The translations under genes were made by a program, and so were the position numbers. The notes beneath the pieces are model-generated. The model saw nothing but the letters and a program-made list of their open reading frames with translations, did no database searches and was not told the DNA's origin. Below are positions 8,864 to 18,746 of a DNA stretch of 50,145 nt, one piece after another (the first letter of the stretch is position 1; the number at the start of each line of letters is the position of its first letter). The stretch is from Accumulibacter sp. (lineage in GTDB: Bacteria; Pseudomonadota; Gammaproteobacteria; Burkholderiales; Rhodocyclaceae), in assembly GCF_023806565.1 (NCBI RefSeq), contig NZ_JAMTDV010000008.1, positions 1 through 50,145 on the forward strand, read 5' to 3'.

Positions 8864-8894
8864 TTGACCCTATAGTAACTTCAGGATGTGCAAT
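8864..8894 (+). promoter_or_regulatory. MerR-type promoter/operator of the Cd/Zn ATPase
   Basis: TTGACC (8864-8869) and TGCAAT (8889-8894) are separated by 19 bp. This over-long spacer is the hallmark of promoters activated by MerR proteins. Between them lies ACCCTATAGTAACTTCAGGA, a dyad very like known CadR/PbrR operators. It sits 30 bp before the ATPase start and faces away from cadR. Confidence 0.85.
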
Positions 8895-8924
8895 GCGCCA
8901 GTTCCCATTCGCAGGAGTTTCGTC

Positions 8925-11198
8925 ATGCCCTCATACCGTCCCCTCCAGTCAGGTCACGCTCATGCCGGCTGTGGTCACGATCACCGTCCTGCGCACGCAC
9001 ATGCGGGCTGCGGTCACGATCACCAGCACGCGCACGCCCATCCTGCAGCGACCGTCGCCAGGCAGAGCGCGCCTCTGAAAGTGCCGGCCGGCAGCGTTCG
9101 CAGTCGGCTGCGCATCGCGCAAATGGACTGCCCGACCGAGGAAGCGCTGATCCGCAAGAAGCTCGACGGCATCGACGCGGTGCACGGCCTCGACTTCAAC
9201 CTGATGCAGCGCGTGCTGACCGTCGTCCACACGGCGGACTCCCTGCCCGACATCGATGCCGCGATCCGCGAACTGGGAATGACCCCGACGCCGCTGACGG
9301 CGACGGCGACGGCGACGGCGAAGGCGGCAAACACGAGCTCCACCACCAGGGCGCACTGGCCGCTGGCGATCGCCGGGCTGCTCGCCATCGCCGCGGAAGT
9401 GGCGCACTGGCTGGACATGCCGGTGGTACTGGTCGCCGCGCTGGCGCTGGCGGCGGTCGCCGGCTGCGGTCTGGCTACCTACCGCAAGGGCTGGATCGCG
9501 CTGCGCAACGGCAATCTGAACATCAACGCGCTGATGAGCATCGCCGTGACCGGCGCCCTGCTGATCGGTCAGTGGCCGGAAGCGGCGATGGTCATGTTCC
9601 TGTTCACAGTCGCGGAACTGATCGAGGCGAGGTCGCTCGACCGCGCGCGCCACGCCATCCATGGCCTGCTGCAACTGGCACCGGAACAGGCAATGGTGCA
9701 GCAGGCCGACGGCGAGTGGGTCGCGGTCGACGCGGCGACGGTCGCGCCGGGCAGCGTCGCCCGCGTGCGTCCGGGCGAACGGATCGCGCTCGACGGCGTC
9801 ATCGTGAGCGGCCGCTCGACCGTAAATCAGGCGCCGATCACCGGAGAAAGTCTGCCAGTCGAAAAGGGCGAAGGCGACGCAGTGTTTGCCGGAACGATCA
9901 ACGAGTCCGGCTCGTTCGCCTACCGCGTCACCGCCAGTGCCGACCACAGCACGCTGGCACGCATCATCCACGCTGTCGAGGAAGCACAGGGCAGGCGCGC
10001 ACCGACGCAGCGTTTCGTCGACCAGTTCGCCAAGGTCTATACGCCGGTGGTATTCGTGATCGCACTCGCTGTTGCCATCGCGCCGCCCTTGCTGATGAAC
10101 GGCGTCTGGTACGACTGGATCTACCGGGCGCTGGTGCTGCTGGTGATCGCCTGTCCGTGTGCGCTGGTGATCTCGACACCGGTGACCATCGTCAGCGGTC
10201 TGGCCACCGCTGCGCACCACGGCATCCTGATCAAGGGCGGCGTCTATCTCGAACAGGGCCGCCAGCTCGCCTGGCTGGCACTCGACAAGACCGGAACGCT
10301 GACCCACGGCAAACCGGTGCAGACCGATTTCGAACTGCGCGGCGCACTGCCCGAAGAGCAGGCACGCAGGCTGGCGGCAAGCCTCGCGGCGCGCTCCGAT
10401 CACCCGGTATCGCGCGCCCTGACGCAGGCCGAAGCGCAGGCGACACTGCCGCGGATGTCGGTGAGCAATTTCGCGGCGATCCCCGGTCGCGGCGTACAGG
10501 GTGTGATCGATGGCGTCGCCTATCAACTCGGCAACCACCGCCTGATCCATGATCTCGGCGTCTGTTCGCCGGAACTCGAAGCGCGCCTCGACGCGCTCGA
10601 GCGGCAGGGTAAGACCACCTTGCTGCTGACCGACGGAGAGACCGTCCTGGCGCTGTTCGCCGTCGCCGACAGCGTGCGCGACAATAGCCGCGCGGCGATC
10701 GCCGAACTGCACTCCCTCGGCATCAGGACGCTGATGTTGAGCGGCGACAACCCGCACACGGTTGCAGCGATCGCCGCCCAGGTCGGGATCGACGAAGTCC
10801 GCGGCGACCAGTTGCCCGAAGACAAGGCAGCGGCGATCAGCGCCAAGCTGGCAGCGACCGGCAAGGTGGGAATGGTCGGCGACGGCATCAATGACGCACC
10901 GGCGCTGGCCCGCGCCGACATCGGATTCGCCATGGCCGCGGCCGGCAGCGACACGGCGATCGAAACCGCCGATGTCGCACTGATGGACGACGATCTGCGC
11001 AAGATTGCCCGCTTCGTTCGCCTCTCGCGCGCCACCTACCGGGTTCTGGTGCAGAACATCGCGCTGGCACTCGGCATCAAGGGGGTTTTCCTGGCACTCA
11101 CGGTCGCTGGTCTGGGAACGATGTGGATGGCGGTTTTCGCCGACATGGGAACCAGCCTGCTGGTCGTGTTCAACGGTCTGCGGCTGCTGCGCAAATGA
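8925..11198 (+). CDS. cadA: Heavy-metal (Cd/Zn/Pb) translocating P1B-type ATPase
   Basis: 757 residues from ATG 8925, which has AGGAG about 9 bp upstream; an earlier ATG at 8886 overlaps the promoter. Order: a His-rich tail with duplicated AGCGHDH motifs (residues 9-45); a heavy-metal-associated domain using MDCPTEE; four hydrophobic helices; TGES actuator loop; CPCALVIS metal-site helix (about 410); DKTGTLTHG phosphorylation site (about 455); SDHPVSRAL (about 490); GDGINDAPA hinge (about 652); two C-terminal helices. CPC plus the His-rich N-terminus indicates the Zn/Cd/Pb class (CadA/ZntA). It pumps soft divalent metals out of the cytosol. A hexanucleotide repeat (9297-9320) encodes a Thr-Ala linker after the HMA domain. 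Confidence 0.95.
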   Translation: MPSYRPLQSGHAHAGCGHDHRPAHAHAGCGHDHQHAHAHPAATVARQSAPLKVPAGSVRSRLRIAQMDCPTEEALIRKKLDGIDAVHGLDFNLMQRVLTVVHTADSLPDIDAAIRELGMTPTPLTATATATAKAANTSSTTRAHWPLAIAGLLAIAAEVAHWLDMPVVLVAALALAAVAGCGLATYRKGWIALRNGNLNINALMSIAVTGALLIGQWPEAAMVMFLFTVAELIEARSLDRARHAIHGLLQLAPEQAMVQQADGEWVAVDAATVAPGSVARVRPGERIALDGVIVSGRSTVNQAPITGESLPVEKGEGDAVFAGTINESGSFAYRVTASADHSTLARIIHAVEEAQGRRAPTQRFVDQFAKVYTPVVFVIALAVAIAPPLLMNGVWYDWIYRALVLLVIACPCALVISTPVTIVSGLATAAHHGILIKGGVYLEQGRQLAWLALDKTGTLTHGKPVQTDFELRGALPEEQARRLAASLAARSDHPVSRALTQAEAQATLPRMSVSNFAAIPGRGVQGVIDGVAYQLGNHRLIHDLGVCSPELEARLDALERQGKTTLLLTDGETVLALFAVADSVRDNSRAAIAELHSLGIRTLMLSGDNPHTVAAIAAQVGIDEVRGDQLPEDKAAAISAKLAATGKVGMVGDGINDAPALARADIGFAMAAAGSDTAIETADVALMDDDLRKIARFVRLSRATYRVLVQNIALALGIKGVFLALTVAGLGTMWMAVFADMGTSLLVVFNGLRLLRK
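9297..9320 (+). repeat. In-frame hexanucleotide tandem repeat (ACGGCG x4)
   Basis: Four perfect copies of ACGGCG, followed by one imperfect copy (AAGGCG), encode alternating Thr-Ala in the linker between the metal-binding domain and the first membrane helix of the Cd/Zn ATPase. Copy changes of six bases would stay in frame and alter linker length. Confidence 0.85.
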
Positions 11199-11772: not shown

Positions 11773-12459
11773 TCAGAACAGCCCGGAGGCGATGTTGATG
11801 GTCAGTGCCAGCAGGGTGGTATTGAAGAAGAACGCGAGAACGCAGTGCACCAGTCCGGTCCGGCGCATGCGGCGACTGGTGAAACCGACGTCGGCGGTTT
11901 GTCCGGAAGTTCCGATGACACAGGCGAAATAGAGGAAGTCTCCATAATCGGGCCGATGACCACCGGGAAAGTCGAGGCCACCGGGAAACCCACGCATTTC
12001 GGCGGCGTAGTAGTCGTGCGCGTAATGCAGCGCAAACATCACCTGGGTGAACGCCCAGGACGACAGGATGGTCAGCGCCGCCAAGCCGATGTGCTCGTAG
12101 CGCAAGGTTCCCTGCAGGTCCTTGGCCACCGCAAGCTGGGCGACGATCGCACCCAGGCTGGCGATGGCGGCACAGACGACCAGCGCGAGGATCACGAATT
12201 GCCCCTCGTCCTGCTCGAGCGCGCGGGTACGCATTCTTTCGTGGGTAGACCAGAACATCATGCGGCCGGCAAGCACCAGGTACGATATCGCACCGACGTT
12301 CCAGCCGATGAGCAGGCGGGTCGCCTCGTGGCCCGCAATCGATGTCGGCAGGAAAAACACCGTCAGCACACCGAGCAGCGCGCAGATGCACAGGCGAGGA
12401 CGAGCCATCAGCAAACGCAGCAGTCTGGGCCGTTCGGGAGTCAAGGGAAGTTCTGCCAT
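11773..12459 (-). CDS. DUF1345 family membrane protein
   Basis: 228 residues with five or so hydrophobic helices (about 20-42, 46-65, 90-112, 124-145 and 200-226) and the DUF1345 landmarks [28 protein letters not shown] and [21 protein letters not shown]. Function of the family is unknown. It is a single-gene unit between the alanine-rich protein (upstream end 11639) and the divergent metal-transport leader. No partner gene is evident. Confidence 0.85.
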
Positions 12460-12590
12460 GAGGCCATTTTACCCTGCCGACAAGCCTACGGCGGGTGCCG
12501 CAGCGAGATCGACGATGCCGCAAAAAATGGTTGCGTAACAACAATATTCCGGCGAAAATGCGCGCCTCTCGTAAGACAGGATCAGGACGT

Positions 12591-12740
12591 GGGCAGTTTA
12601 CCCAATTCATGCACTCTGACGACACGGCGTGGCTTGGCCACGGCACAGGTGTAACCAGCGACTGCCCAGCGCACGTGACCTGACGTGCGCATCCAGCCTC
12701 CTGGCCTCCACACCTTTGCGGTGTCGGAGGCTTTTTTTAC
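12591..12740 (+). promoter_or_regulatory. Structured leader RNA with attenuator upstream of the MgtE-N/CBS and NRAMP-like genes
   Basis: The 312-bp gap before the CBS gene holds three nested or successive helices. GGGCAG (12591-12596) pairs with CTGCCC (12662-12667) and encloses a smaller GTGGC/GCCAC hairpin. GCGCACGT (12669-12676) pairs with ACGTGCGC (12683-12690). An intrinsic terminator follows at 12704-12738, about 33 bp before the gene start. A terminator placed between a folded leader and a metal-transport gene is the layout of a transcription-attenuating riboswitch. I do not recognise the fold as M-box, yybP-ykoY or another class I can recall. A 24-codon ORF (12609-12683) inside it has no ribosome site. 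The upstream part of the gap, 12460-12590, shows nothing I can support. Confidence 0.6.
12704..12738 (+). terminator. Intrinsic terminator/attenuator in front of the MgtE-N/CBS gene
   Basis: GCCTCCACACC (12704-12714) pairs with 12720-12731 through 11 base pairs with one bulged C around a 5-nt loop, and is followed at once by seven T. It is a textbook Rho-independent terminator on the plus strand. It lies 33 bp upstream of the next start codon and cannot serve the divergent DUF1345 gene, so premature termination (attenuation) is the natural reading. Confidence 0.85.
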
Positions 12741-12771
12741 GCCGCTCGCGCGGCAGAACAGGAGGCAATCC

Positions 12772-14034
12772 GTGCTTTACCTTGCATCATTTCTGGACCA
12801 GCCGGTCCGTGGCAAGACTGACGAAACGATCGGGCGACTCGAAGACCTGATCGTCAAGGTGGGAGAAGAGTTGTACCCGCCGATCACCGGGCTGGTCATC
12901 CGCGATGGACGGCGGGACTTCTTCGTTCCGGCAACGCAGCTCGAATCGATCAACGGGGTAGCCCGGCTTTCGACGTCGACCGTGAATCTGCGGCCGTTCC
13001 GGCGCCGTGACGGCGAAATCCTGCTGCGCAAGGACGTGCTCGACCATCAGATCATCGACATCTCCGGGCGGCGCATCGTGCGCGTCAACGACGTACAGGT
13101 CCTCCGCGTCGAGCACGTCTATCGGCTGATCGGCGTCGATGTCAGCCCGCAGGCGCTGCTGCGCCGACTGGGTCCGCGTTCGCTGGCGCACAAGGTGGTC
13201 GGCCGGCGGATCATCGACTGGCAGGAGGCGCAGTATCTGGCCAGCGAGGCTCCAGTTCAGCTGAAGGTCTCTTACGACCGTCTGTCGGAACTCAATCCGG
13301 TGGATCTGGCGCGCATCGTGGATGCCCTCTCCTACCGCGAGAGTGCCGAGATCGTCGCCGCCCTCGACGACGAAACCGCCGCCGATCTGCTCGAGGAGGT
13401 CAGCGACGAGCGCGTCACCGACCTGCTCGAAGGAATGGACAAGGAGCGTGCTGCCGACATCCTCGAGGAAATGTCTCCGGGCGCCGCCGCCGACGCCCTG
13501 GAGGATCTCGACGAGGAGGTCGCCGAGGAAATCATCGCCAGCATGGAGCCCGAAGAGGCTGCCGAAGTGCAGGAACTGCTGGCCTACGACGAGGACAGTG
13601 CCGGCCGGATCATGCGGACCGACTACGTGCGCGTGCGCGCCACGGCAACCGTGGGCGACGCCCTGGCCTTGCTGCGCGCGCTGCCGGAAGTACCCGATCC
13701 GCTGCTGGCGCTCTATGTCGTGGCCAGGGACACCACACCGGCCACCGCCAAGGACGACGATGCGGTCGTCCTGCGCGGCATCGTGCGGCTGCGCAGCCTG
13801 GTGACTGCCGACCATGCGACGCCGCTGGCCGAGGTAATGGATCACGACACGCCGACGGTTCGCGCCACGGACCACGCCGACGAAGCCGCGAGGATCATGG
13901 CCGAGTACAACCTGCTGGCGATCCCGGTTCTCAACGAGGCCGGACATCTCGTGGGGATCGTGACCGTCGACGATGCGATCGCGATGCTGCTGCCGGAGAT
14001 CTGGCAACACCGTGGCGCACGCGTGTTCAGCTAG
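12772..14034 (+). CDS. Soluble PRC-barrel/MgtE N-domain/CBS-pair protein (cation sensor)
   Basis: 420 residues from GTG 12772, preceded by AGGAGGCA at good spacing. A PRC-barrel-like N-terminus (about 1-70, LYLASFLDQPVRGKTDETIG) leads to an MgtE N-type superhelical domain (about 165-285) with repeated acidic helices such as DDETAADLLEEVSDERVTDL. Two CBS motifs follow (about 280-410, GRIMRTDYVRVRATATVGDAL and the second ending IPVLNEAGHLVGIVTVDDAI). In true MgtE channels these domains bind Mg2+ and gate the pore, but no membrane helix follows here. The next gene, 85 bp on, is a NRAMP-like permease. The likely role is a detached Mg2+/nucleotide sensor for that permease; this is inference. Confidence 0.88.
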   Translation: MLYLASFLDQPVRGKTDETIGRLEDLIVKVGEELYPPITGLVIRDGRRDFFVPATQLESINGVARLSTSTVNLRPFRRRDGEILLRKDVLDHQIIDISGRRIVRVNDVQVLRVEHVYRLIGVDVSPQALLRRLGPRSLAHKVVGRRIIDWQEAQYLASEAPVQLKVSYDRLSELNPVDLARIVDALSYRESAEIVAALDDETAADLLEEVSDERVTDLLEGMDKERAADILEEMSPGAAADALEDLDEEVAEEIIASMEPEEAAEVQELLAYDEDSAGRIMRTDYVRVRATATVGDALALLRALPEVPDPLLALYVVARDTTPATAKDDDAVVLRGIVRLRSLVTADHATPLAEVMDHDTPTVRATDHADEAARIMAEYNLLAIPVLNEAGHLVGIVTVDDAIAMLLPEIWQHRGARVFS

Positions 14035-14119: not shown

Positions 14120-15430
14120 ATGGCAAATGTGAATCCGATCAGCGAACAGTTCGAAACCGCCGCCGAGCTCGCGCACGGCCACAAGAAGCGCGGAAAAATC
14201 TGGGTGTATCTGATGGCGATGGGCCCCGGCCTGATCGCGGCCAACGCCGGCAATGACGCCGGCGGCATTGCGACCTACGCGTCTGCCGGCGCCTCGTACG
14301 GCTACGACTTCCTCTGGGTGATGGTGGTCATTCTCTTCAGCCTTGGCGTCGTCCAGGAAATGTGCGCCCGCCTCGGCACGGTGACGGGCAAGGGCTTCTC
14401 GGATCTCGTCCGGGAAAACTTCTCGCTGCGCATGACCGTGTTCATCCTGTTCGCCCTCCTGATCGCCAACTTTGGCGTCATCGTCACCGAATTCGTCGGC
14501 ATCGGTGCAGCGGCGGAACTGTTTGGCGTCAGTCGCTACATCGCCGTGCCGGTTTCTGCGGTGCTGCTCTGGGTGCTCATCACGCGCGGTTCGTACAGCC
14601 GGGTCGAAAAGATCTTCCTCGTCCTGACGCTGGTCTTTCTCAGCTACATCGGCTCGGCGATCCTCGGGAAACCCGACTGGCACGAGGTGGTCGGCCAGAT
14701 CGTGACGCCGCAGATCAAGGAGGATCCGGCCTGGCTGACACTGCTGATCGCGCTGATCGGCACCACGATCACGCCGTACATGCAGTTGTACGTTCAGTCG
14801 GCGGTCGTCGAAAAAGGGGTGAAGCCCAGCGAATATTCCTTCACACGCTTCGAAGTATGGGCCGGAACTTTTTTTGCCGTGGCCATTTCCGGATTCATCA
14901 TCATTGCCACCGCCGCGACCCTGTTTCCGATCGGCCAGGCAGTCGAGACCGCCGCCGACGCCGCACAGGCCCTGGCGCCGATTGCCGGGCAGTACGCCAG
15001 CCAGTTGTTCGCCATTGGTCTCCTCGGCGCCTGCCTGCTGGCCGGTGGCGTGCTGCCGCTGTCGACGACCTACGTGATGAGCGAGGCCTTGGGCTTCGAG
15101 CGCGGCGTGTCGTTCTCGTGGCGCGAGGCACCGGTCTTCCAGGGAATGTTCACCGTGCTGCTCGGGCTGGGCGCCGCCTTGGCGCTGATCCCCAACCTGC
15201 CGGTCATCCAGGTGCTGCTCGGCGTGCAGGTGCTGCAGGGTCTGGTGCTGCCGATCGAGCTGTTCGCCATCCTGACCTTGATCAACAACGTCGAGCTGAT
15301 GGGCAAGTACGTCAATCGCAGGGCCTACAATCTGGCGGCGTGGACGATTGCGATCGTCGTCAGCCTGCTGTCGCTGACGCTGATCGTACTGACCGTGCTC
15401 GACTGGTTCGGCATCAAGCTGGGCGGCTGA
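14120..15430 (+). CDS. NRAMP-like divalent cation permease with non-canonical metal site
   Basis: 436 residues with about eleven membrane helices and the NRAMP/SLC11 fold signature GPGLIAANAG. At the two metal-site helices the usual motifs are changed. TM1 has DAGG (residues 46-49) where Mn/Fe transporters have DPGN. TM6 has TPYM (218-221) where they have MPHN, so the metal-binding methionine is replaced by threonine. Such changes are known from NRAMP-related proteins that carry Mg2+ instead of Mn2+ or Fe2+. ATG 14120 follows the MgtE-N/CBS gene by 85 bp, so both probably share one transcript under the upstream attenuator. Substrate remains inferred; the fold assignment is firm. Confidence 0.9.
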   Translation: MANVNPISEQFETAAELAHGHKKRGKIWVYLMAMGPGLIAANAGNDAGGIATYASAGASYGYDFLWVMVVILFSLGVVQEMCARLGTVTGKGFSDLVRENFSLRMTVFILFALLIANFGVIVTEFVGIGAAAELFGVSRYIAVPVSAVLLWVLITRGSYSRVEKIFLVLTLVFLSYIGSAILGKPDWHEVVGQIVTPQIKEDPAWLTLLIALIGTTITPYMQLYVQSAVVEKGVKPSEYSFTRFEVWAGTFFAVAISGFIIIATAATLFPIGQAVETAADAAQALAPIAGQYASQLFAIGLLGACLLAGGVLPLSTTYVMSEALGFERGVSFSWREAPVFQGMFTVLLGLGAALALIPNLPVIQVLLGVQVLQGLVLPIELFAILTLINNVELMGKYVNRRAYNLAAWTIAIVVSLLSLTLIVLTVLDWFGIKLGG

Positions 15431-15665: not shown

Positions 15666-17429
15666 ATGACGACAAACGCCGGTTTCAACCGCTTCGCGCC
15701 ACGCGCGGCTGGCGCGGTCGGCCCGAATCGTTGGGACGTTCTCCTGCTGCCACTGGTAATCGGCACGCTGTTCCTGATCACCTGGGGCAGTGGGAAAATG
15801 AACGCGCCGTATGTTCTCGGCACGCCGATCCCGATATCCCTCGAACCGGGGAATCTGCCCGAGTATGCCCTGCGTACGACGCTGCGCATGACGCTGGCCA
15901 TGCTCGGATCGCTCGCTTTCGCGCTTCTTTACGGCAGCCTGGCGGCAAAATCGGTGGCCGCCGGACGGGTTCTCATCCCGCTGCTGGACATTCTGCAATC
16001 GATCCCGATCCTCGGCTTTCTGTCGATCAGCGTCGTCGGTTTCGTCCGGCTCTTTCCCGGCAGCATGCTGGGCCCGGAACTCGCGGCGGTCTTCGCGATT
16101 TTCACGTCGCAGGCGTGGAACCTGACGTTCAGCTACTACGCCAGCCTGCGCATGGTCCCCCGCGATCTGTATGAGGTTTCGCGGATGCTCAAGCTCTCGC
16201 CGTGGCAGCAGTTCTTTCGGCTGGAGGCACCTTACGCGATGCCTGGCCTGATCTGGAACATGATGATGTCGGTCGCTGGCGGCTGGTTCTTCGTCGTCGC
16301 CTCGGAAGCAATCACGGTTGACAACATGAGCATTCAGCTTCCCGGGATCGGCTCGTACATCGCGCTGGCAATTCGCAGCGAGGATCTGCCCGCCGTCGGT
16401 TACGCCATTCTCGCGATGTTCATCGTGATCCTGGCGACCGATCAACTGTTGTTCCGCCCGTTGGTCGCCTGGGGCGAGAGGTTCAAGTTCGAGTTCACCG
16501 AAAACCAGCGTCCGCCGCGCTCGTGGTTCCTGTCGCTACTGCGCCGTGCGCAGTTCACGCGCATGTTCCTCGCTGCGGTGATGCGCGGAATGGTGGTTGT
16601 CCAGCTGGTCTCGGCGCTGCTGGCGTCGAGGCAGGCGCGGCAGGCCTTTGCCTGGCCGCGGCGACTGCGCTGGAGCGTGGACGGCGCGCTTCTCGACCGC
16701 TACTGGAACGCCCTCGTGGTGATGGCAGCGGCGGCAAGCACGTTCGCGCTGATTCGTTTCGTGCATGCGGCGGTCAGCTTCCAGGAGGTCGGCCAGGTGT
16801 TGCTGCTCGGATTGATCACCGGCGCGCGCGTGCTGCTTCTCGTCGCACTCGCCTCGCTGCTCTGGGTACCCATCGGCATCTGGATCGGACTCAACCCGCG
16901 CATCGGCCAGCCGGCACAACCGATTGTCGTCCTGCTCGCGGCATTTCCGGCCAACCTGTTCTTCCCCGTCGCGATTTCCGCTATCGTCGGCTTCCATCTG
17001 GATCCCGAAATCTGGCTCAGCCCGCTGATGATCCTCGGCACCCAATGGTACATCCTGTTCAACGTCGTCTCGGCCGCCGCCGCCCTGCCGTCGGACCTGC
17101 AGGAAGCAGCTGCGAACATCGGCTTGCGCGGGGGAATGCGGTGGACCCGGCTGCTCCTGCCGTCGGTCTTTCCGTCGTATGTTACCGGCGCGGTCACCGC
17201 CTCCGGTGGCGCCTGGAATGCCAGCGTGGTTTCCGAGCTGGTCAATTGGGGCAGCACCAGCTTGAGCGCGACCGGGCTGGGAGCCTACATCGCAACGCAG
17301 ACCGCGGCCGGCGATTATCCACGCGTCGCCCTGGGGGTCGTCGTGATGAGCTTGTACGTCGTCCTGTTCAACCGTGTCGTCTGGAAGCGACTGTACATGA
17401 TGGCCGAACAGCGCTTCAGCTTCGTTTGA
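15666..17429 (+). CDS. ABC transporter permease, tandem fusion (nitrate/sulfonate/bicarbonate type)
   Basis: 587 residues carrying two binding-protein-dependent permease domains in one chain. The first spans about 60-265, with the EAA-loop-like DLYEVSRMLKLSPWQQFFRLE. The second spans about 370-580, with EAAANIGLRGGMRWTRLLLP. Each has five or six hydrophobic helices. Fused double permeases of this length occur in the nitrate/sulfonate/taurine superfamily. The ATPase gene follows after 12 bp. No substrate-binding protein gene is present on either side, so the substrate is open. Confidence 0.88.
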   Translation: MTTNAGFNRFAPRAAGAVGPNRWDVLLLPLVIGTLFLITWGSGKMNAPYVLGTPIPISLEPGNLPEYALRTTLRMTLAMLGSLAFALLYGSLAAKSVAAGRVLIPLLDILQSIPILGFLSISVVGFVRLFPGSMLGPELAAVFAIFTSQAWNLTFSYYASLRMVPRDLYEVSRMLKLSPWQQFFRLEAPYAMPGLIWNMMMSVAGGWFFVVASEAITVDNMSIQLPGIGSYIALAIRSEDLPAVGYAILAMFIVILATDQLLFRPLVAWGERFKFEFTENQRPPRSWFLSLLRRAQFTRMFLAAVMRGMVVVQLVSALLASRQARQAFAWPRRLRWSVDGALLDRYWNALVVMAAAASTFALIRFVHAAVSFQEVGQVLLLGLITGARVLLLVALASLLWVPIGIWIGLNPRIGQPAQPIVVLLAAFPANLFFPVAISAIVGFHLDPEIWLSPLMILGTQWYILFNVVSAAAALPSDLQEAAANIGLRGGMRWTRLLLPSVFPSYVTGAVTASGGAWNASVVSELVNWGSTSLSATGLGAYIATQTAAGDYPRVALGVVVMSLYVVLFNRVVWKRLYMMAEQRFSFV

Positions 17430-17441
17430 GGGAATCGCCGA

Positions 17442-18746
17442 ATGGAAAGGGAGCCCCTGCTCGAACTGCACTGCGTCGGCAAGACCTTTCGCTCTGGCGA
17501 CGGCGGCGCAAGCCCGGTACTCGAAGGCATCGATCTGTGCGTCAACCCTGGCGAGATCATCGTCCTCTTCGGCCGTTCGGGCTGTGGCAAGTCGACGCTG
17601 CTGCGAATCATCGCTGGCCTGACGCCGGCGACGATGGGCGAAGTGCGCTACAAGGGGCAGCGCGTGACGCGACCGCAGCCGGGAATCAGCATGGTGTTCC
17701 AGACCTTTGCTCTGTTTCCGTGGCTGAATGTGCAGCAGAACGTCGAACTCGGCCTCGAAGCCGCCGGCGTTCCCGCCGAGGAACGTCGACGGCGCGCCCT
17801 GGAAGTGATCGACATGATCGGTCTCGACGGCTTCGAATCGGCGTATCCGAAGGAGCTCTCGGGAGGCATGCGCCAGCGCGTGGGTTTTGCCCGGGCACTG
17901 GTGGTACATCCCGACGTGCTGCTGATGGACGAACCCTTTTCCGCCCTGGACGTACCGACCACCGAGGCGCTGCGCCATGACCTGATGGATCTGTGGACAA
18001 CGCGCCAGATCCCGACCCGGGCGATGCTCCTCGTATCGCACAATATCGAGGAGTCGGCGCTGGTCGCCGACCGCATCGTGATCCTCCACAACAATCCCGG
18101 CAGCATCAAGAGCGAGATCCGGGTGCAGCTCAAGCATCCACGTGATCCGGATTCACGCGCTTTCCGGCTGCTCGTCGAACAGGTTTACGCGGCCATCTCG
18201 TCGACGGGCGCGGCACAGCGGCGCAAGCTCGGTGTCGGGTACCGCCTGCCGTCGGCGACCGTCGGCCAGATGATGGGAATTCTCGAACGCCTGAACCTTC
18301 CGGGCAACGCCGGCGGACTCGGCCTGTCGGTTCTGGCCGAGGTGATGCAGATGGAGGTGGACGAGTTGTTCCCGATCATCGAGGCGCTCGAACTGATGGT
18401 ATTCACGCGCACCAACGGGCAACGCGTGGAGTTGACGCCAGCCGGAAAAACCTTTGCCGAAGCCGACATCCTGCAGCGCAAGATCATTTTCGGAGAGCAA
18501 TTGCTGCAGAGAATTCCTCTGGCGACGAACATCCGCCATGTCCTGGAAGAACGCAGCGGTTCACGCGCGCCACGGTCGCGTTTCCTGCGCGAGCTCGAGG
18601 ATCACCTGAGCGAGGAGGAAGCGGAACGGGTGCTGGGCGTCGTCACCGACTGGGGGCGCTACGCGGAAATCCTCGCCTATGATGGCGACACCGGAACCTT
18701 CAGTCTCGAAAATCCGGGCAGCGAGGACCTTGCGGATACCCCTTGA
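17442..18746 (+). CDS. ABC transporter ATPase with C-terminal AAA-associated domain
   Basis: 434 residues. The ATPase domain (about 5-255) has Walker A GRSGCGKST (45-53), Q-loop MVFQTFALFPW, signature LSGGMRQRV (about 140), Walker B VLLMDEP followed by FSALD, and switch His in LLVSHNIEE. It is of the SsuB/TauB/NrtD type. The C-terminal 170 residues (about 265-430, VGQMMGILERLNLPGNAGGL...) match the AAA-associated C-terminal domain found on some nitrate/sulfonate-class ATPases, probably a regulatory or ligand-sensing module. It pairs with the fused permease just upstream to form a complete inner-membrane complex. Confidence 0.9.
   Translation: MEREPLLELHCVGKTFRSGDGGASPVLEGIDLCVNPGEIIVLFGRSGCGKSTLLRIIAGLTPATMGEVRYKGQRVTRPQPGISMVFQTFALFPWLNVQQNVELGLEAAGVPAEERRRRALEVIDMIGLDGFESAYPKELSGGMRQRVGFARALVVHPDVLLMDEPFSALDVPTTEALRHDLMDLWTTRQIPTRAMLLVSHNIEESALVADRIVILHNNPGSIKSEIRVQLKHPRDPDSRAFRLLVEQVYAAISSTGAAQRRKLGVGYRLPSATVGQMMGILERLNLPGNAGGLGLSVLAEVMQMEVDELFPIIEALELMVFTRTNGQRVELTPAGKTFAEADILQRKIIFGEQLLQRIPLATNIRHVLEERSGSRAPRSRFLRELEDHLSEEEAERVLGVVTDWGRYAEILAYDGDTGTFSLENPGSEDLADTP

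Follow-up and report, generated by a model that had tools for sequence, protein, structure and literature searches.

What decides whether transcription proceeds into a predicted divalent-cation transport operon of Accumulibacter, and which signal does the RNA in front of that operon read? Accumulibacter is important in phosphate removal, and Mg2+ accompanies polyphosphate. The locus lies in a 50,145-nucleotide stretch of Accumulibacter sp. DNA (contig NZ_JAMTDV010000008.1 of assembly GCF_023806565.1), here called the window. An initial annotation of the sequence had proposed an attenuator-like leader RNA with three helices, among them a perfect 8-bp hairpin and a terminator with seven T, and had suggested that it might be a new cation-sensing riboswitch class or a divergent member of a known one.

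The first gene of the operon encodes an MgtE_N/CBS protein (Table 1) whose PRC domain, at 19.8 bits, falls below the Pfam cut-off of 21.2. Among solved structures, the operon's Nramp protein is closest to 7qia, the Mg2+ transporter EleNRMT, with an E-value of 3.6e-114; the best MntH reaches 6.5e-28. The NRMT clade is distinguished by DxxG and TxxA/T in the places of DxxN and A/CxxM (PMC8806188). Consistent with this, DAGG and TTIT align at these positions in the operon's Nramp protein. Operons in which nrmT is paired with a gene encoding the N-terminal domain of MgtE, some of them preceded by an M-box, were described in 2014 (PMC4072509). One NrmT tested in that work acted as a Mn2+ transporter and not as a high-affinity Mg2+ transporter (PMC4072509), so Mg2+ is a likely rather than a proven substrate here. 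Near the operon, 8886-11198 encodes what looks by eye like a heavy-metal P-type ATPase, rich in His at its start (HAHAGCGHDH), and downstream, at 15666-18746, Pfam identifies an ABC permease (BPD_transp_1) and an ATPase with an AAA_assoc_C domain.

Table 1. Coordinates of the leader and operon features in the window, and of the second leader type found in the genus.
Feature	Coordinates	Strand	Remarks
Candidate promoter	12531..12559	+	TTGCGT - 17 nt - GAAAAT; weak; by eye
Candidate leader ORF, GTG...TAA, 21 codons plus stop	12589..12654	+	predicted peptide MGSLPNSCTLTTRRGLATAQV, start read as Met; stop 12652-12654
P1, 5' strand TGGGCAGT	12590..12597	+	fold; sequence invariant across three leaders
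P1, 3' strand ACTGCCCA	12661..12668	+	fold; complete pairing in window only; TGGG/CCCA core in all three
Inner hairpin CGTGGC-TTG-GCCACG	12628..12642	+	fold; kept, one broken pair in G019
Hairpin 2, perfect 8 bp	12669..12690 (12669-12676/12683-12690)	+	fold
GCCTCCT, complementary to SD region AGGAGGC (12760-12766)	12696..12702	+	single-sequence folds
Intrinsic terminator	12704..12738	+	11-bp stem with one bulge (12704-12731), seven T (12732-12738); scan and fold
Small hairpin GCCGC-TCGC-GCGGC	12741..12754	+	between terminator and SD; kept in three leaders, loop differs
Shine-Dalgarno (SD) AGGAGG of first gene	12760..12765	+	from sequence
PRC-barrel-like / MgtE_N / CBS protein, 420 aa	12772..14034	+	GTG start; Pfam MgtE_N 1.3e-24, CBS 3.2e-15
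Nramp-family transporter, NRMT (Mg2+) type	14120..15430	+	Pfam Nramp 1.8e-87
Type B leader	L033:2964-3126 and L034:1985-2147	minus (both)	no Rfam match

Sequence and folding bore out the three helices, and the terminator does lie between the MgtE_N/CBS gene and the divergent DUF1345 gene, both recognised by Pfam, with 33 nt from the end of its T-run to the GTG start at 12772. As a whole, the 150-nt leader (12589-12738) folds at -64.5 kcal/mol (z -3.81), a stability reached by none of 200 shuffles. The terminator (12695-12740; z -4.60, 0/200 shuffles as stable) and the 8-bp hairpin (12660-12692; z -4.07, 1/200) are each strong by themselves, and the leader minus its terminator (12575-12690) has a z of only -1.32, matched by 23 of 200 shuffles, so the fold signal comes mostly from these two elements. 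When the segment 12591-12650 was folded alone, 124 of 200 shuffles were as stable. A terminator scan listed four sites in 12000-13200 on both strands, the leader site included, against 0.7 expected.

The same kind of leader, type A below, is present in the window genome and in two others, G017 and G019, at 79-80% identity, and every type A comparison is limited by that number of sequences, three. The terminator, a GC-rich hairpin with a T-run ahead of the first gene as in intrinsic-terminator attenuators, is kept in G017 and G019. Hairpin 2 retains its GCGC/GCGC base in these relatives, its inner part being replaced by other hairpins; only 1 of 300 column shuffles was as stable as its consensus fold, for a stretch chosen after the alignment was seen. 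Together these data support the proposal of an attenuator-like leader before a divalent-cation operon, with terminator and hairpin 2 kept in two other species, and this nrmT operon leader is built like a cis-acting transcription attenuator. A stricter scan for sigma-70-type promoters on the + strand of 12000-13200 listed no match, so the promoter in Table 1 is a weak candidate; by eye, the three aligned leaders have boxes of the form TTGC(G/A)(T/A) or GTGCAA plus GAAAAT at similar positions. In single-sequence folds of all three, GCCTCCT pairs with the Shine-Dalgarno region (with one mismatch in G017), and this pairing is a possible second, translational level of control. CCTCC-like stretches also precede the terminator in several Chloroflexota leaders, by eye.

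The initial annotation had matched the fold to none of the metal riboswitches known to it, and the covariance search agrees: the window leader has no match in Rfam 15 at the gathering score, and relaxing the limit to E 10 for 12460-12800 brought up none either. This holds for the M-box (RF00380), which was likewise found in 0 of 28 genomes of the genus by a search that was positive in 2 of 14 control genomes (B. subtilis, L. lactis). M-boxes do occur in orthologous leaders, described below, but given these negative searches the idea that the leader is a very divergent M-box is in our view extremely improbable.

The suggestion of a new class would have 12589-12668 act as an aptamer for Mg2+ or another divalent cation, with the bound form setting whether the terminator forms. 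It draws on the 5' half of the leader, which is strongly conserved in the three species irrespective of codon position; strong conservation starts at about the GTG/TTG at 12589 and continues, with gaps, to the terminator. This half is conserved in sequence, yet its consensus fold was matched by 99 of 300 column shuffles. The consensus fold of the whole leader was matched by 0 of 300 when the terminator was included and by 56 of 300 when it was left out. Two of 26 pairs changed on both sides, a degree of covariation matched by 108 of 500 shuffles, in a set of three sequences where covariation could be missed. The alignment of leaders across Rhodocyclales that the initial annotation had put forward as a check came to cover one genus only; in it the terminator and hairpin 2 are conserved, and P1, complete in the window only, shrinks to a short core in the relatives. 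Searches for a copy beside another gene were no more favourable to an aptamer. With the leader DNA as query against 101 genomes, G017 and G019 lay beyond chance and the next best hit had an E of 8.8e-4 over 29 nt; 76 of the 101 matched at E up to 1, all besides these two over short stretches. A covariance model of the type A leader returned weak hits and no convincing second site in the 28 genomes of the genus.

A second leader of about 160 nt, type B, precedes the same gene in two of these 28 genomes, G004 and G006, and its structure speaks for an aptamer. All 42 pairs are kept in both sequences and five of them changed on both sides, matched by 13 of 500 shuffles in this comparison of two sequences, and the consensus fold was matched by 0 of 300 column shuffles. 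However, the type A and type B covariance models fail to detect each other, and comparisons of type A with type B and with Chloroflexota loci gave chance-level hits only (E 0.37 to 0.83). A relationship between the two types was considered and rejected, the shared start TTGGGCAGTT being its sole support. No convincing second type B site was found by covariance model in the 28 genomes; one partial hit, to model positions 92-150 only, lies at L110 (G023:C8:32872-32930, E 0.0015). For the other Accumulibacter leaders (L033, L034, L032 and L002 to E 5, L067 to E 1) Rfam returned sub-threshold hits only, among them one to the IMPDH RNA in the G004 leader, at 21.7 bits against a threshold of 95.4 and an E of 1. 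With the fold of the 5' half and the covariation of the type A leader no better than shuffles provide, and with no convincing copy beside another gene among the genomes searched, the new aptamer class is unsupported, and we consider it unlikely.

An alternative source of conservation could be translation. The 5' half of the type A leader holds a candidate ORF, which the earlier reading did not consider and to which the orthologous leaders point. As in mgtL-like attenuators, a short ORF with a conserved frame precedes the terminator in all three type A leaders: the frame is open throughout with no indel in 66 nt, and neither of the other two frames stays open in every leader. With GTG or TTG read as Met, the predicted peptides are MGSLPNSCTLTTRRGLATAQV, MGSLPSSTDSPTRRGLATAAV and MGSLPRSTDSTTRRGLTTAAV, behind Shine-Dalgarno sequences of weak energy (-4.1, -5.0 and -2.9). 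Conservation of sequence and not of fold in this half could fit a stretch that is read by ribosomes. Codon-level conservation of the peptide was absent in the three leaders. Nonsynonymous and synonymous changes stand at 6:2, 6:1 and 3:2, and the variable columns number 7, 5 and 4 by codon position, with third positions not favoured among three sequences, so we see no sign of selection on the peptide. The window peptide has a proline at position 5 and lacks acidic residues altogether; the peptides of the two relatives each have a single Asp, which is encoded by codon 9. Another window ORF (ATG at 12609, containing SDD) was discarded, its ATG being missing in both relatives and a one-base insertion being present in G017. 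In the type B leader, G004 has the strongest Shine-Dalgarno sequence (GGAGG), followed by a TTG-started ORF of 19 codons; in G006, where the gene is matched in part only, a start codon is absent at the place of the leader ORF.

We then asked where else this gene and its leader occur. Within the genus, all or part of the MgtE_N gene was found in 5 of 28 genomes, whole in the window genome (G000), G004 and G017 and as fragments in G006 and G019; in G019 only codons 1-42 were matched and there is an internal stop. None of 398 other sampled genomes of the host's order had the MgtE_N/CBS gene at E 1e-50 or better, in a search that, like that of the phylum Chloroflexota, scored four candidates per genome, so that absences are no proof. 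Five genomes of the host family hold distant relatives (28-31% identity), and the 420 nt directly upstream of these look coding by eye. Five plasmid records have relatives at 26-34% identity, and two Streptomyces relatives reach 39% along a portion of the protein. Outside the genus, the nearest relatives that were found belong to Chloroflexota, at 65-72% identity in one search. A search of the order to which genome G699 belongs, taken as Chloroflexales in the phylum Chloroflexota, raised this to as much as 73%; there 21 of 82 genomes had the gene at E 1e-60. In the phylum, 176 of 400 genomes had it at E 1e-40 or better. From these comparisons, acquisition of the Accumulibacter operon from a Chloroflexota donor seems the simplest reading.

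The Chloroflexota leaders were examined at 20 of the 21 loci of G699's order (L084 was excluded, its contig starting inside the gene) and at the loci of a phylum search, which yielded 30, including 24 that had not been covered before and that were used for the ORF search. An M-box lies upstream of 3 of the 20 loci in the order and of 0 of the 20 more distant loci scanned among these 24. Since orthologous loci carry this element, Mg2+ is also the likely signal for the window leader. At the three M-box loci (L075:355-517, L083:995-1160, L085:1028-1194), one sees by eye, between the M-box and the gene, first a hairpin ending in a short T-run, next a short ORF and lastly another hairpin that resembles a terminator.

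In the order, 19 of the 20 upstream regions contain a short ORF whose stop codon lies 64-122 nt ahead of the gene; these ORFs were first chosen by eye and then tabulated with start strings taken from that reading, which builds a bias into the count. Terminator-like hairpins lie between the ORF and the gene, by eye. The ORFs begin with MDDDYHS at 10 loci and elsewhere with MDDHHQPG, MDDYHQPG, MEDYH, MDGSH or MGGSQ. At 12 of the 20 loci the ATG falls 6-7 nt past the -10-like box of a promoter-like box pair, so the 5' end of these transcripts may coincide with the start codon or lie immediately beside it. The ORFs of L086-L095, L097 and L076 (MDDDYHS..., MDDDQYL... or MDDHHQPG...), close behind a -10-like box, are possibly leaderless leader peptides. 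Within the MDDDYHS group, variable columns number 3, 2 and 7 over 12 codons, which is suggestive only, the 10 loci being closely related.

Among the 24 further loci, 11 have a GTG-started ORF of the form ME.GP(S/R)...; codon 4 and two of the three letters of codon 5 are prescribed by the search pattern itself, and the codon-position count (1, 1, 4) is thus no test. Upstream of these ORFs (L124, L125, L130, L132-L136, L138, L139, L141) stands GGAGG or GAGG, which lies inside a small hairpin in the consensus fold of eight of them. The starts of the three type A ORFs each agree with the ME.GP(S/R) consensus at 8 of 15 nt, as did 204, 305 and 326 of 10000 shuffles, in a comparison made after the likeness had been noticed; the G004 ORF start agrees with ME.GPS at 5 of 15 nt (3025 of 10000 shuffles). 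The type A and type B models gave chance-level hits only in the Chloroflexota leaders, so the argument from their ORFs to that of the window rests on position and operon.

These data allow us to propose a mechanism for the window leader. RNA polymerase would start upstream of 12589, perhaps near 12566, transcribe the 21-codon ORF, and then either stop at the terminator or enter the operon. The progress of a ribosome on the ORF would most likely set this choice. With Mg2+ plentiful, complete translation would favour the terminator, and with Mg2+ low, failed or aborted translation would allow read-through by way of a putative antiterminator, in the manner of mgtL-mgtA. Given the open frame, a 5' half conserved in sequence and not in fold, and the short ORFs of the orthologous leaders, leader-peptide-coupled attenuation of the nrmT operon is the best single explanation, and we put its probability at roughly 0.4. 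It is weakest in that the peptide shows no codon-level selection and, in the window, no acidic residues, and in that the antiterminator is inconsistent: the candidate antiterminators of the window, G017 and G019 were matched by 11, 10 and 256 of 300 shuffles, respectively, standing above most in the first two and not in G019, and overall 3 of 16 leaders tested fell under 15 of 300.

The want of a consistent antiterminator is what a constitutive partial terminator would predict, one that sets the level of the operon and involves no regulated switch. Such an element would need neither hairpin 2 nor a sequence conserved over a large part of the 70 nt that follow 12589, and in the orthologous loci terminator-like hairpins appear, by eye, together with a short ORF or an M-box; we judge this quite unlikely. 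The same anatomy could instead answer to another input, whether a leader-binding protein, another metal such as Mn2+, or the supply of a tRNA or amino acid. A leader-binding protein is compatible with the present data, and the Mn2+ transport by a published NrmT noted above (PMC4072509) would suit a different metal, but the M-boxes of orthologous leaders argue for Mg2+. The leader peptide has no run of any single amino acid, so a classical amino-acid attenuator is unlikely, and an input other than Mg2+ is on the whole improbable.

Beyond the window, leader-peptide attenuation may extend to the phylum from which the operon seems to derive. In a broader model, which we offer tentatively and regard as possible though doubtful, short leader peptides govern the Chloroflexota nrmT operons and their Accumulibacter copies, their translation reporting Mg2+ to an intrinsic terminator. 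These peptides would often be acidic at the start and several would lie at the 5' end of the transcript; an MgtL-like sensor would then have arisen outside the enterobacteria, in some cases in tandem with an M-box. The short, often acidic leader ORFs of Chloroflexota are a more interesting lead than a new riboswitch class, and they were not described among the literature matches listed, in a search that left most subscription journals outside. If the model is true, a second and apparently unrelated set of leaders, before a different Mg2+ transporter, would test acidic leader peptides as general reporters of Mg2+, and the locus would show how an acquired Mg2+ transporter stays controlled in Accumulibacter.

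Several known systems share parts of this arrangement. Closest in operon type are the M-box leaders of nrmT operons, which also have a terminator and which occur in the three Chloroflexota orthologs above as well as before other nrmT operons (PMC4072509); the window leader differs in having no M-box. The same difference separates it from the pe20 M-box of M. tuberculosis, where the M-box is followed by a conserved short ORF, rv1805A, as at L075, L083 and L085, and where control is translational and Rho-dependent (PMC12810186). In mgtQ of the Salmonella mgtCBRU operon, a very short ORF with acidic codons likewise controls a Mg2+ transporter, but it lies between genes and affects translation and not an intrinsic terminator (PMC8092293). 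In enterobacteria, mgtA and mgtB are described as sensing Mg2+ through translation, and the same has been proposed for corA (PMC11552253, PMC11282234, PMC8092293). In mgtL-mgtA of Salmonella and E. coli, as proposed here, the leader of a Mg2+ importer contains a short ORF, beyond which transcription stops or continues. Termination in the mgtA leader is Rho-dependent (PMC11282234), whereas the leader studied here has an intrinsic terminator, a peptide free of acidic residues and an inferred response to Mg2+. The early acidic and proline residues of E. coli MgtL are its Mg2+-sensitive part (PMC11282234, PMC11552253), with ribosomes dropping off at the early EPDP motif at low Mg2+ (PMC11282234), and it is this motif that the Chloroflexota peptides MEPGPS and MDDDYHS recall, by eye.
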